Positions 8,861 to 13,831 of a stretch of 39,217 nt of DNA are shown here, one piece after another (the stretch's first letter is position 1; each line of letters begins with the position of its first letter). The translations under genes were made by a program, and so were the position numbers. Below the pieces are notes generated by a model. That model saw only the letters and a program-made list of their open reading frames with translations. It ran no database searches and was not told where the DNA came from. The DNA lies in the NCBI GenBank assembly GCA_020854775.1, contig JAHKLZ010000050.1, forward strand, positions 1 through 39,217, written 5' to 3'. The stretch is from Candidatus Woesearchaeota archaeon (lineage in GTDB: Archaea; Nanobdellota; Nanobdellia; Woesearchaeales; 21-14-0-10-32-9).

Positions 8861-10618
8861 ATGAAAATGACTGAACAAGAAACATGGAATCTGAAAGACT
8901 TATTTAAAGGAAAAACAGAAGAAGAAATATTTAACAAATCCTTGAATTTAAAGCAACAAATAATACAAAAAAAACCTGATTTAGAAAAAGAACCAACACC
9001 TGAATTAATATTAGACATAATAAAACTAAATGAAGAACTCGAACTTGAATTATCAAGAATACTATCTTACTATTCTCTTAGAATGCACACAAACGTAAAA
9101 GATGAAGAAGCAAAAGCTAAATTAGATTATTACAAACAAGCAGCATCAGATATAGATAATGAAACAATGTTCTTCGATTTATGGTTTATACAATTAGAAG
9201 AACAACAAATAAAGGAATACATAAATAATCCTTTACTAGAAAAATATTCACAACACTTAAAGAATTTAATAAAAGTAAAACCCTACACGAAAACAGAAGA
9301 AATAGAACAAATACTAAACATAAAAAACATAACAGGAAGACACGCATTCTCAAACTTATTCGATGTATTAACATCATCATTCAAATTCGAAATTCAAGGA
9401 CAAGAATTAACACAAGAAGAATTAGTATCAAAATTCTCAGATCCAAATCCTAAAATAAGAGAAGAAGCATACACTGCGTTATTAAATATTTACAAAAAAA
9501 ACAGCACAACAATATCAGAGATATACAAAAACATAGTTTTGGATTGGAATAATGAAAATCAAAAAATAAGAAAATACGAAAACGCAATAGCTCCAAGAAA
9601 CACATCTAACGGTTTAACAAACGAAGTAGTACAAACAATGATTAAAGTAATAAGAGAAAACGTAGAATTAATACAAGAATTCTTCAAATTAAAAAAAGAA
9701 TACTTAGAAAAAAAAGATCAACATCACGCATATTCAAGAATGCACATATACGCACCATACAATTTAACAAAAGAATACGCGTATGAAGAAAGCAAAAAAA
9801 TATGCTTAGAAACATACAAAGAATTCGACGCAGAATTTTATGAACATGCAAAAAAGATTTTTGATGAAAAACATGTACACTCACATCCTAAAAAAAATAA
9901 AAGAAGCGGAGCATTTTGCTACGGACCTAACAATGAAACGACACCCTACGTATTATTGAATCACACAAATAAAATAAAAGATTTATTCACTATGATGCAC
10001 GAATTAGGACATGGAATACATGACATATACGCGTCTAATAACACAAACATATTATATGACGCGGTACTACCTCTAGCAGAAACAGCATCAATACTAGGAG
10101 AAACAATATTATCGAAAAAATTATTACAAACAAATAATAAAGAAGAAAAAATATCCTTAATAATGTATTTAATGGAACACTACTACGCGACGATAATAAG
10201 ACAAAATTATTTCATAATATTTGAAGAAGAAGCACATAAAAGAATAATGGATGGAGTAACAAAAACAGAACTAGATAATTATTATTACGATCTTTTAAAA
10301 GAACAATTTGGTGATATGGAAATACCAGAACTATTCAAACACGAATGGAATTATTTACCGCACATTCACCACGCACCATTCTACTGTTACGCATATAGTT
10401 GGGGTAACTTACTAGTTTTAGCATTATACGCAGAATACGAAAAAAATTCAGAATTCAAAGAAAAAATAAAAGACATACTGAAAGCAGGAGGATCTAAAGA
10501 CACACTAAAAATACTAGAAGAAGCAAACATAGATCCGACAAAAAAAGAATTCTGGGAATCAGGATTCAAAATAATTAAAGAACAATTAGAAGAATTCAAA
10601 GAATTAACAAAAAATTAA
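8861..10618 (+). CDS. pepF: Oligoendopeptidase F (M3 family zinc metallopeptidase)
   Basis: 585 residues, a normal length for PepF-type M3 peptidases, cytosolic enzymes that cut short oligopeptides. Zinc motif HELGH (H380, E381, H384) sits in LFTMMHELGHGIHD, with E407 in LPLAETAS as the third ligand. Other family marks are YSRMHIYAPY, the RSGAFCYGP segment, and a Tyr-rich FYCYAYSWGNLLV near the C-terminus for substrate binding. The N-terminus (TWNLKDLF) is typical. The TATA-like CTTTTTTAAACA at 8835-8846 would place a leaderless start at either 8861 or the in-frame ATG at 8867. By eye, codon use differs from the neighbours: TTA, GAT, AAT and TTT are common where adjacent plus-strand genes prefer CTA, GAC, AAC and TTC, hinting at a different history. 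The stop overlaps the convergent gene by four bases. Confidence 0.93.
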   Translation: MKMTEQETWNLKDLFKGKTEEEIFNKSLNLKQQIIQKKPDLEKEPTPELILDIIKLNEELELELSRILSYYSLRMHTNVKDEEAKAKLDYYKQAASDIDNETMFFDLWFIQLEEQQIKEYINNPLLEKYSQHLKNLIKVKPYTKTEEIEQILNIKNITGRHAFSNLFDVLTSSFKFEIQGQELTQEELVSKFSDPNPKIREEAYTALLNIYKKNSTTISEIYKNIVLDWNNENQKIRKYENAIAPRNTSNGLTNEVVQTMIKVIRENVELIQEFFKLKKEYLEKKDQHHAYSRMHIYAPYNLTKEYAYEESKKICLETYKEFDAEFYEHAKKIFDEKHVHSHPKKNKRSGAFCYGPNNETTPYVLLNHTNKIKDLFTMMHELGHGIHDIYASNNTNILYDAVLPLAETASILGETILSKKLLQTNNKEEKISLIMYLMEHYYATIIRQNYFIIFEEEAHKRIMDGVTKTELDNYYYDLLKEQFGDMEIPELFKHEWNYLPHIHHAPFYCYAYSWGNLLVLALYAEYEKNSEFKEKIKDILKAGGSKDTLKILEEANIDPTKKEFWESGFKIIKEQLEEFKELTKN

Positions 10619-11352
10619 ACATTCAAACTTCTAAGTGTATCAAGATTAACATCATCAATACTTTTCTCTAACTCAAAAAAAGTCAAAACCATTAAACTAA
10701 TAGAGCCTAACAAAGAACAATAAGAAAAATACAAAGAAAACTCATCATTATTCTTAAAAGACAAACCTAAATCATTAACAGCCTTAAAAAAATTATCAGA
10801 ACCAAAACTCAAACGCATAATGTTCCTATTAACAGAACAAACATTCTTAAAATAAGAATCCAAATCAGAACAATTAATACTATTTAACAAAGACCTGACG
10901 CGTTGAATCTCAACACCCCAAGAATTCATAAAAAACTCAAAAGACTCAACACTGATATTATCTAAAAATTCAATTTCTGCCTTAAATCGCTTAATACTAG
11001 CACGAAAAAAATCAATAAAAACACCAACGACCCTCATTAAACGCTCAACATTACCTAAAAAAACAGAATCATTAGAAATAGTACTCAACCAAGAAAAAGA
11101 CTCAAACAAAAAATCATTACTCTTACTCAAACCCTTACTAACAGACTCTAAAAAAGGCCTTTCATTCTTAACAGCTCTTCTCAACAACCTAATACCTTCA
11201 TCATTACTCAAATCACGCTGAAGAAGATTAACGCCGAGAATCATATCCTTAGAAATAATACTTCTAATATCTAAAGCACGAAACAAATGCTGTCTGAACT
11301 CATTAACCATAATAATCTTAGATTCAACACCTAATTTTTCTTCATTATCCAT
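10615..11352 (-). CDS. Uncharacterised helical protein
   Basis: A 245-residue protein I do not recognise. It is rich in Phe, Ser, Leu and Asn, has no signal peptide and looks mostly alpha-helical (for example NEFRQHLFRALDIRSII and RRAVKNERPFLESVSKG). It has a TATA box (centre near 11378, about 26 bases upstream) divergent from the trm5-like gene. Codon use is the T/G-ending style of minus-strand genes in this window, so it is long resident. Its stop codon shares the TTAA at 10615-10618 with the stop of pepF. The gene is real by codon bias and promoter, function unknown. Confidence 0.7.
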   Translation of the reverse strand: MDNEEKLGVESKIIMVNEFRQHLFRALDIRSIISKDMILGVNLLQRDLSNDEGIRLLRRAVKNERPFLESVSKGLSKSNDFLFESFSWLSTISNDSVFLGNVERLMRVVGVFIDFFRASIKRFKAEIEFLDNISVESFEFFMNSWGVEIQRVRSLLNSINCSDLDSYFKNVCSVNRNIMRLSFGSDNFFKAVNDLGLSFKNNDEFSLYFSYCSLLGSISLMVLTFFELEKSIDDVNLDTLRSLNV

Positions 11353-11444: not shown

Positions 11445-13178
11445 ATGAAAGGAATAAAAACAAAATTAGAAAACGCTGAAAAAACAAAGAAAAAATTATC
11501 AGAACTAAAAGTAATAAACACAGAATACAAAATAAAAAAAGACGACACACACATATATTTTCCAATAAAAAAAGAACCAAAACAACCAAACTTTGAAGTG
11601 ATAGAAACAAATTTTGAAAAAAATATACAAAAAGAAAAAGACTTAAAAAAAATATTAATAGAAAAATTAAGTTCACAAGAATTAGAAAAACTAAAAACTT
11701 CTTTCGACACAATAGGTGAAATAGCCATATTAGAAATAGACGAAGAATTAAGACAAAAAGAAAAAATAATAGCAGAAGCTCTTCTAAAAAGCCATAAAAA
11801 CATCAAAACAGTGCTAAGAAAAGACGATAAACACGACGGAGAATTCAGAACACAAAGAATGAAGTGGCTAACAGGAAAAAACACAAAAGAAGCCACACAC
11901 AAAGAAAATAACATAACACTAAAACTAAATGTTGAAACAGTTTATTTTTCACCTCGTCTATCTACCGAAAGAAAAAGAATCGCTGAACTAGTAAAAAAAG
12001 ACGAAGAAATACTAGTGATGTTCTCAGGATGCGCACCATACCCTTGTGTACTAGCAAAAAACACAGAAGCAAAACACATAACAGGAATAGAACTAAACCC
12101 GGAAGGACACAAATATGGAATAAAAAACTTAGAAATAAACAAGATAAAAAACGTTACTTTAATCAATGGAGACGTAAAAACCCAAACAACACAAATCTAT
12201 AAAAACATAATAGGACTAAAATCAAACATTCAAGATTTACAAACAAGACTAATACACGAACCAAAAATCATGGAACTACACTTATTCAAAGAAGACTTAC
12301 ATGAAAACAAAGAAACATTAGAAAAAACAATACAAGACCTAAAACAACAAAACCTAGAAGTTTTCATACACATGCCATTCCCAATAAACGGAGAAAAAAT
12401 CCTAGGAGAACAAAACTCAGAAAAAGCAATACAAGAACTAACAATTCTAGGAGAAATATGCAAAAAACACAACACAAAAGCAATAATACACATAACAGAA
12501 GGAAAACCACTAATAAAAGATGAACAAATAATAAATAATATAACAAGACTAAGAAATTACTACAACTATTTTTATTTTGAGAACTTAACAGCTCATTTTA
12601 ACACAACAGAGGAAATAATAAGAATAGGAAAAAAAGCAGGAATAAAAAACACTTGCATAGACATAGCTCATTTGTATAAAACTTACAAGAACAACGAAGA
12701 AATCATCAAACACATAAAAGAAATGCAAAAACACTACAACACCTATTTCCACTTATCAGACTCAGACGGAGAAAAAGACGCATTAAGCATAGGAACAGGA
12801 AACATAAACATAAATAACATATTACCTCTAGTAAATAAAGGAATAACAGAAGTAAAAAGCAAAAAAGAAGAAGATCCAAAAGAAATGATCGCGAGCTACA
12901 AAGAAATAATATCTAAAAAAAGAACATTCGACAGAATCATAATGCCACTACCAAAAAACGCGGAAGACTTCCTAGAAGATGCCCTAAACGTATCAAAAAA
13001 AGGAACCATAATACACTTTTACAACTTCTTACACGAAACAGAATTCGAAGAAGCAGAACATAAAGTCAAAGAAGCCTGCACGAAAAAAGGATTCAAATAC
13101 AAAAAAATAAAACTAATAAAAGCAGGACAACAATCACCTAGAACATACAGAATATGCCTAGATTTCCAAGTACAATAA
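11445..13178 (+). CDS. trm5: Trm5-type tRNA (guanine37-N1)-methyltransferase with an inserted TIM-barrel domain
   Basis: 577 residues, against about 330-340 for archaeal Trm5b. Residues 1-170 match Trm5 D1/D2: IKTKLENAEKTKKKLSE, GEIAILEI and VYFSPRLSTERKRI. The SAM-binding half follows (VMFSGCAPYP 191-200, GIELNP 214-219, NGDV 241-244). After NGDV, where Trm5 normally runs within a few residues into the catalytic IIMNLP strand, there are about 250 extra residues (~245-493). They carry xylose-isomerase/AP-endonuclease-2-like marks: VFIHMPF, FENLTAHF, CIDIAHLYKTY, YFHLSDSDG and IGTGNI. The methyltransferase then resumes with FDRIIMPLP (495-503), GTIIHFYNF and PRTYRICLDFQV. Trm5 methylates N1 of G37 and initiates wyosine-type modification. 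The inserted domain could add a second chemistry or bind tRNA; that is inference. A TATA box (AGATTTAAAC, 11411-11420) supports a leaderless start. Confidence 0.88.
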   Translation: MKGIKTKLENAEKTKKKLSELKVINTEYKIKKDDTHIYFPIKKEPKQPNFEVIETNFEKNIQKEKDLKKILIEKLSSQELEKLKTSFDTIGEIAILEIDEELRQKEKIIAEALLKSHKNIKTVLRKDDKHDGEFRTQRMKWLTGKNTKEATHKENNITLKLNVETVYFSPRLSTERKRIAELVKKDEEILVMFSGCAPYPCVLAKNTEAKHITGIELNPEGHKYGIKNLEINKIKNVTLINGDVKTQTTQIYKNIIGLKSNIQDLQTRLIHEPKIMELHLFKEDLHENKETLEKTIQDLKQQNLEVFIHMPFPINGEKILGEQNSEKAIQELTILGEICKKHNTKAIIHITEGKPLIKDEQIINNITRLRNYYNYFYFENLTAHFNTTEEIIRIGKKAGIKNTCIDIAHLYKTYKNNEEIIKHIKEMQKHYNTYFHLSDSDGEKDALSIGTGNININNILPLVNKGITEVKSKKEEDPKEMIASYKEIISKKRTFDRIIMPLPKNAEDFLEDALNVSKKGTIIHFYNFLHETEFEEAEHKVKEACTKKGFKYKKIKLIKAGQQSPRTYRICLDFQVQ

Positions 13179-13225: not shown

Positions 13226-13831
13226 ATGGCTGAAATAAAAATCACATACGAAACACTCTTCGACTTACTCAGACGAGAAAAAGGCAGAAACGAATTACAA
13301 GAATTAGAAAACACGTTCTACGAAGACGTAACTAATTACATAACAGAAAAAAATAAAGCACTAAACACAATAACTTCTAGAGGAGAAAAAGAAAAAATAA
13401 ACATACAACTAAAAAACATTAAAAAAATACTCAAAGAACTATACGAACTAAGAGAAAAAAAAATAATAAACCTAGCAACAAGCAAAGTAAGAACCAGCTC
13501 TAACCTAATAGATACAAGCAAATTACTAGAAAAAGAAAAAGAACTATATGAAGAAGCATGCACTCTATTATCCAAATACAAACAAGATATTCTAGAAAAA
13601 ATAACACAAACACAAGAACAAGAATACACACACGAAGAAACAAAAAAACCAGAGCCATCAACACAAGAAAAAAAACCAGAAAAAATCAAAATCAAAATAA
13701 TACACGACTTACCAAGATTCCTAGGAATAGACAAAGAAATCTACGGACCATACACAAAAGGACAAGAAATAGAAATAACACAAGAAACAGCACAACTCCT
13801 ACTAGACAAAAAAAGAGCAGAAAAAATCTGA
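13226..13831 (+). CDS. gins51: Archaeal GINS subunit (Gins51/Gins15-like)
   Basis: 201 residues. GINS joins MCM and GAN/RecJ-Cdc45 in the archaeal replicative helicase complex. The N-terminal helical A domain shows ITYETLFDLLRREKGRNELQ followed by an FYEDV segment, typical of the family. A charged linker (~135-155, rich in Glu, Lys, Pro, Thr) leads to a small beta B domain (IIHDLPRFLGIDKEIYGPYT and the QEIEITQETAQLLLDKKRAE ending). The A-then-B order marks the Gins51/15 type. It follows trm5 with its own TATA box. Its TGA stop is immediately adjacent to the stop of the 24-codon gene on the other strand. Confidence 0.85.
   Translation: MAEIKITYETLFDLLRREKGRNELQELENTFYEDVTNYITEKNKALNTITSRGEKEKINIQLKNIKKILKELYELREKKIINLATSKVRTSSNLIDTSKLLEKEKELYEEACTLLSKYKQDILEKITQTQEQEYTHEETKKPEPSTQEKKPEKIKIKIIHDLPRFLGIDKEIYGPYTKGQEIEITQETAQLLLDKKRAEKI

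Follow-up and report, generated by a model that had tools for sequence, protein, structure and literature searches.

The window (the whole 39,217-nucleotide stretch of archaeal DNA that was analysed) contains an open reading frame at positions 11445-13178 that is a complete Trm5, the tRNA m1G37 methyltransferase, carrying a TIM barrel in the loop before its catalytic MPLPK strand. The embedded barrel is very probably an active metalloenzyme, as indicated by its pattern of conservation. We judge the chances to be about even that the protein is a working Trm5 with an independent metal-dependent hydrolase barrel, which was spread by recombination in the flanks.

Gene layout and predicted fold

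The frame is unbroken, and all motifs quoted in an initial annotation of this DNA, which had proposed a TIM barrel inside Trm5, lie within its 577 amino acids. The nested two-domain protein with two complete Trm5 halves described there was recovered using Pfam: Trm5_N, TYW2_N_2 and the TRM5/TYW2 methyltransferase all exceeded their gathering scores, and TRM5-TYW2_MTfase was matched in two stretches with AP_endonuc_2 as the insert. The insert alone matched AP_endonuc_2 at 1.4e-8 (35.1 bits; gathering cut-off 31.1). Further, the crystal-structure relatives, Trm5b and Trm5a of P. abyssi and Trm5 of M. jannaschii, aligned in two stretches, and the gap between them is the insert. The features of the gene are as follows.

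11445..13178, + strand: Trm5 gene that contains the nested barrel (577 aa from an ATG; the span includes the stop codon)
11451..11582, + strand: Trm5_N domain, aa 3-46 (Pfam PF18093, E 3.2e-13)
11643..11885, + strand: TYW2_N_2 domain, aa 67-147, which holds R135 (Pfam PF25133)
11847-11849, + strand: R135, equivalent to Arg145 of M. jannaschii Trm5 (alignment to 2yx1; invariant in all carriers)
11895..12203, + strand: SAM methyltransferase fold part 1, aa 151-253, with FSGCAPYP, GIELNP and NGDV (Pfam PF02475, E 1e-37; PDB Trm5b 5yac)
12204..12911, + strand: inserted AP_endonuc_2-type TIM barrel, aa 254-489 (Pfam PF01261, AlphaFold, Foldseek, stand-alone copies of equal extent)
12912..13175, + strand: Trm5 methyltransferase fold part 2, aa 490-577 (crystal-structure relatives, alignment to insert-free relatives)
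12942-12956, + strand: MPLPK, replacing the NPPY-type motif, within methyltransferase part 2

The limits of the barrel (about 236 residues) were fixed by the 'GIKS' start of stand-alone homologues and by insert-free relatives; the span first proposed, 12180-12924, was right to about 8 residues. At the insertion site, carriers have 240-293 residues and insert-free relatives about 4, in agreement with the few that had been ascribed to ordinary Trm5. Inspection of the alignment at both junctions revealed neither the Cys/Ser/Thr of an intein splice junction nor a C-terminal His-Asn.

Structure prediction, which had been suggested as a check, returned a TIM barrel. AlphaFold gave a pLDDT of 95.4 and a pTM of 0.92 for the barrel alone, and 91.3 and 0.81 for the whole protein with an 18-sequence alignment. 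In the model, the insert consists of eight strands (aa 256-260, 275-279, 305-310, 345-349, 376-379, 402-406, 432-437 and 466-468) alternating with helices, and the last barrel helix (479-489) runs directly into the Trm5 strand that bears MPLPK. Because both ends of a TIM barrel exit from its bottom face, the barrel mouth should face away from the Trm5 junction. The top Foldseek match of the barrel was 3wqo (M. jannaschii MJ1311, D-tagatose 3-epimerase-like; E 4.9e-12, TM 0.78), and D-tagatose 3-epimerase-like proteins were followed by epimerases, IolI and UVDE. Pfam AP_endonuc_2 was matched in 15 of 18 members of the barrel family.

Arg145 of M. jannaschii Trm5 recognises the flipped G37. The NPPY-type Asn (Asn265) is replaced in the window's Trm5 by P501 of MPLPK. 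This does not disqualify the protein as a Trm5, because Pro is also present in barrel-free relatives and is analogous to Pro260 of P. abyssi Trm5a, which occupies the position of the NPPY-type Asn (PMC5372744). The NCBIfam Trm5b equivalog NF047730 scored 245 bits (cut-off 600), which makes the protein a member of the wider family outside the equivalog. MPLPK in place of an NPPY-type motif was seen in most Trm5 sequences read in the order, with or without a barrel (window 12942-12956 and relatives); given the similar Pro in the bifunctional P. abyssi Trm5a, such enzymes may have an unusual position-37 specificity. The gene upstream of Trm5 (10615-11352, - strand) encodes a 245-aa protein with no Pfam match, and the gene directly downstream (13226-13831, + strand) encodes a GINS (Gins51_C, Sld5) replication protein.

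Conservation of the barrel active site

The embedded barrels diverge to about 25% identity, and the median column conservation across 27 of them is 0.43. Conservation reached at least 95% at K259, E277, H309, H349, E379, D406, H409, Y434, H436, G466, E469 and E480, such that the near-sole invariants are seven metal ligands of endonuclease IV (Nfo) type together with K259, E277 and E480. This answers the initial question about metal-ligand residues in the barrel. Counterparts were assigned by aligning the profile with the endonuclease IV of M. tuberculosis (5zhz), and the labels His69, His109, Glu145, Asp179, His182 and His216 follow the numbering of the E. coli enzyme.

12219..12221, + strand: K259, barrel strand 1, invariant (conservation)
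12273..12275, + strand: E277, barrel strand 2, invariant (conservation)
12369..12371, + strand: H309, endonuclease IV His69 (alignment to Nfo 5zhz; conservation)
12489..12491, + strand: H349, endonuclease IV His109 (alignment to Nfo 5zhz; conservation)
12579..12581, + strand: E379, endonuclease IV Glu145 (alignment to Nfo 5zhz; conservation)
12660..12662, + strand: D406, endonuclease IV Asp179 (alignment to Nfo 5zhz; conservation)
12669..12671, + strand: H409, endonuclease IV His182 (alignment to Nfo 5zhz; conservation)
12750..12752, + strand: H436, endonuclease IV His216 (alignment to Nfo 5zhz; conservation)
12849..12851, + strand: E469, probably endonuclease IV Glu261 by strand order, outside the stretch aligned to 5zhz (conservation)
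12882..12884, + strand: E480, last barrel helix (no variation among embedded copies or in the two stand-alone ones)

The equivalents of Asp229 and His231 of the third zinc site are variable in the barrel, and seven of the nine Nfo ligands are kept; the barrel therefore has two complete Nfo metal sites out of three. Because the invariant positions are nearly limited to the metal ligands, K259, E277 and E480, activity as a metalloenzyme is very probable. In close pairs, the dN/dS of the insert was mostly 0.15-0.2 and resembled that of the flanks; one small, noisier pair gave 0.43. All or nearly all ligands were lost in the carriers L043 and L054, which keep a shrunken barrel remnant and unaffected Trm5 motifs. 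The charge of the insert varied across carriers from strongly basic to acidic and thus gave no consistent sign of nucleic-acid binding.

Distribution and recombination

The search for the insertion in other archaeal Trm5 genes, also proposed initially, yielded 26 further genes. Together with the confidently predicted alternation of eight strands with helices, this recurrence places the observation well beyond chance. In total, we confirmed 27 different Trm5 genes with a barrel, counting each distinct barrel-bearing open frame of 400 aa or more; the barrel lies at one identical site in all of them, and R135, D243, M500, P501 and P503 of Trm5 are kept throughout. The carriers belong to scattered lineages of tiny, Woesearchaeota-like archaea. 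Their sequences stem from independent assemblies, among them a closed genome, and they span at least 17 family-level groups, 15 in the order and two outside it; the rarity implied by the initial annotation thus did not stand. A full-length insert-bearing Trm5 frame is present in about 19, and Trm5 without the insert in about 114, of the 145 genomes examined in the order. A search of 353 genomes with the insert profile revealed further carriers. In other orders of the class, carriers were found in three genomes (G524, G563 and G574), and a fourth (G627), which gave a match to the barrel, is a candidate carrier. Within the family of the window's genome, a congener has a barrel-bearing Trm5 that is 58% identical over its full length, and the remaining genera lack the barrel. 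A contig scan with an alignment of close relatives detected six loci, and one with the insert alone as query detected no relatives.

A mis-join had been named as a possible refutation. The same junctions are present in all 27 genes, namely the window's gene, its congener and 25 others, including one in a single-contig genome (G020), and the probability that we give to an assembly artefact is practically nil.

The window's own genome (1.18 Mb) has one Trm5 match, 11445-13178, and other carrier genomes also usually have a single match; the nested protein must then presumably supply the m1G37 function. Across the searched genomes, from the order and from other orders, Trm5 was the sole protein in which we found the barrel embedded. 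In one genus (L087 in G093 and L114 in G137), Trm5 has in the same region an unrelated, mostly helical segment of about 147 aa, which apparently stands in for the motif III strand; a stand-alone barrel is present in G093 as well.

Stand-alone barrel genes were found in G093 and G167 (259 and 244 aa). Both start with the 'GIKS' strand seen in the embedded barrel and keep the K, the E and all metal ligands, and the Trm5 genes of both genomes are barrel-free. As two genomes thus encode the barrel separately from a Trm5 that lacks it, the barrel is a separable enzyme. A stand-alone outgroup barrel (L137) also matched 3wqo by sequence. Two other genes of related type were noted in the window's own genome. 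One (L024:2726-4714, - strand, contig C5) encodes a 662-aa protein in which the AP_endonuc_2 match is confined to the end of the profile; the first strands seemingly lie in its N-terminal part, which suggests another xylose-isomerase-like barrel, interrupted by a large insertion, and similar frames of 654-702 aa occur in G157, G158 and G171. The other (L025:2906-3769, + strand, contig C9) encodes a stand-alone Nfo-like TIM barrel of 288 aa and adjoins genes for an ABC-type ATPase and a cysteine-desulfurase-like protein (SUF-like).

In a Trm5 tree calculated with the insert removed, carriers and non-carriers were interleaved, requiring 10 changes (bootstrap range 9-11). These gains or losses, together with the conflicting host and barrel trees of G195, led us to reject a single vertical origin. 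One family (f41) includes non-carriers and two unlike barrels. The neighbours of Trm5 are alike in carriers and non-carriers, and their order, read by sequence, is RNase Z, a tRNA-splicing-endonuclease-like gene, FEN1, an EamA transporter, Trm5 and the proteasome-activating ATPase. Synteny is thus kept whether or not the barrel is present, and transfer of the whole gene need not be invoked. The order-wide neighbourhood (L088-L096, L102, L140-L148) also has an HTH/nuclease-like gene before FEN1 and an Xaa-Pro peptidase last, and it is largely lost in the window's own genome.

The barrel of G195, a member of f41, is 75% identical to the barrels of family f40 and 31% identical to that of its family-mate G151. 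Barrel trees placed it with f40/f16, and pairing with G151 was rejected (AU p 1.4e-4 and 0.003). The distal parts of the G195 Trm5 grouped with f41 and rejected f40 (p 2.6e-5); the Trm5 parts flanking the insert grouped with f40/f16 and weakly rejected f41 (p 0.046). At informative sites, the affinity changes near aa 165-170 and near 535. From the tree conflict and the switching sites, we conclude that the G195 Trm5 is, at the level of sequence comparison, a recombination mosaic that received its barrel, flanks included, from another family. This case was picked after the trees were seen, and the mosaic claim is limited to the G195 gene. The permutation scan also gave low p values in barrel-free controls (down to 0.006). 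Mosaic signals in the window's own gene and other recipients (p 0.005-0.03 at best) were no better than those of the barrel-free controls and were discounted. As for other sources of the barrel, two scans of viral contigs with peptide patterns found no relative, against a viral origin, and PADLOC gave no meaningful match (best E 0.021), against a role in anti-phage defence.

Proposed function of the nested barrel and comparison with known systems

We propose that a functional Trm5 took up a complete, catalytically competent AP_endonuc_2 TIM-barrel metalloenzyme at a surface loop leading into the catalytic MPLPK strand. The barrel would have been tolerated because both of its ends emerge together from the bottom face, leaving both active sites free. 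It would bind two metal ions at Nfo sites 1 and 2, with the third site missing two ligands, and its activity, for the most part separate from methyl transfer, would be that of a metal-dependent hydrolase. The likeliest type is a phosphodiesterase with a nucleotide or RNA-type substrate. The barrel may persist and spread because recombination in the conserved Trm5 flanks carries it between lineages. A hydrolase-type site is favoured over that of a single-metal epimerase by the extra histidines at the metal-1 positions and by the nearest sequence families, CbiR and nfo, which are phosphodiesterases; the top structural matches, mostly epimerases and isomerases, count against a phosphodiesterase.

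The barrel might instead act on the same tRNA at or near position 37, for example by cleaving or proofreading tRNA without proper m1G37, which would make the protein a coupled bifunctional tRNA enzyme. We consider this unlikely, even though the barrel is embedded only in Trm5 among the proteins of the genomes searched, the Trm5 locus of many relatives adjoins, by our reading, RNase Z and tRNA-splicing endonuclease, and phosphodiesterases occur in the superfamily (PMC7733943). The same neighbourhood is present in genomes without the barrel, stand-alone barrels exist in genomes with insert-free Trm5, and the barrel mouth should, by topology, point away from the Trm5 junction. Further, the nested architecture proposed initially has held, but its link to wyosine formation has not: Taw1 (PF08608) is present in most genomes regardless of the barrel, is absent in carriers G025, G049 and G091, and thus shows no association. 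About equally possible as this tRNA-37 role, and likewise unlikely, is a small-molecule isomerase or epimerase resembling D-tagatose 3-epimerase, housed in Trm5 and acting on a sugar or sugar phosphate. The leading Foldseek matches are D-tagatose/allulose epimerase-like proteins, PF01261 includes both classes, and E277 on strand 2 presumably resembles the isomerase/epimerase signature, which counts for such an activity. However, invariant histidines at the Nfo metal-1 positions, here H309 and H349, are not typical of single-metal epimerases, and the NCBIfam and sequence-profile matches are to CbiR and nfo, not to epimerases.

We know of no homing enzyme with an AP_endonuc_2-type barrel fold. 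A selfish, homing-like module, in which a nuclease barrel promotes its own transfer into barrel-free Trm5 and survives there as an in-frame insert that the host protein tolerates, would nonetheless fit the one invariant insertion site in a conserved gene, the patchy presence in sister genomes, the degenerate copies L043 and L054, and the gene-conversion-like tract with co-converted flanks in G195. Such a module is highly unlikely in our view: ordinary homologous recombination suffices, only one transfer is clear and the other triads did not exceed controls, and the peptide-pattern scans of viral contigs gave no match. It is decidedly unlikely that the barrel is either a recombination-mobile, non-splicing, in-frame homing-like module, with a cycle of invasion, conversion of flanks, decay and loss, or an m1G37-linked phosphodiesterase of the tRNA anticodon loop. 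A structural or regulatory domain without catalysis would agree with the ligand-less remnants kept in L043 and L054, but the ligands are almost the sole invariant positions among 27 diverged barrels, and we regard it as extremely unlikely.

Trm5 guards the reading frame during translation, and in most carriers we found no Trm5 besides the nested one; to house a second, apparently active metalloenzyme within it is therefore a striking constraint on protein design. The repeated presence or absence of the barrel at one site, its stand-alone copies and the mosaic form a natural experiment on the spread of a catalytic domain by way of an essential gene. Should the barrel act on tRNA, DPANN archaea would have an unknown position-37-linked step.

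The initial annotation knew of no such protein, and we too found no description of Trm5 joined with a TIM barrel in a nested layout in the open full-text literature, subscription journals excluded. The barrel has the fold of endonuclease IV (Nfo; 5zhz) and seven of its nine metal ligands, E469 being assigned by strand order; in contrast to Nfo, it lacks Asp229 and His231 of the third zinc site, and NCBIfam nfo did not reach the window's insert. The top NCBIfam match of the insert was CbiR (NF041277; about 3.2e-7 to 3.6e-7), a cobamide-remodelling phosphodiesterase (PMC7733943). Its 30 bits are far below the cut-off of 105, which rules out CbiR membership, and the barrel differs from CbiR in being embedded in Trm5. 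The CbiR profile was matched in five of 18 barrel members with nfo also near, all below cut-off, and no cobamide gene was recognised among the ORFs read by eye next to Trm5. A CbiR search of the window's own genome gave no match and missed even the window's insert, and thus says nothing about a stand-alone CbiR. We place the barrel in the AP_endonuc_2 superfamily, outside Nfo and CbiR proper. Its closest structural match, MJ1311 (3wqo), is a stand-alone protein with only about 16% identity. Compared with known Trm5 enzymes (NF047730 Trm5b; PDB 5yac, 2yx1 and 5wt1), the window protein is alike in all Trm5 domains, R135, the SAM motifs and the overall fold; it differs in the barrel of about 236 aa before the catalytic strand and in MPLPK, which is shared by its insert-free relatives.
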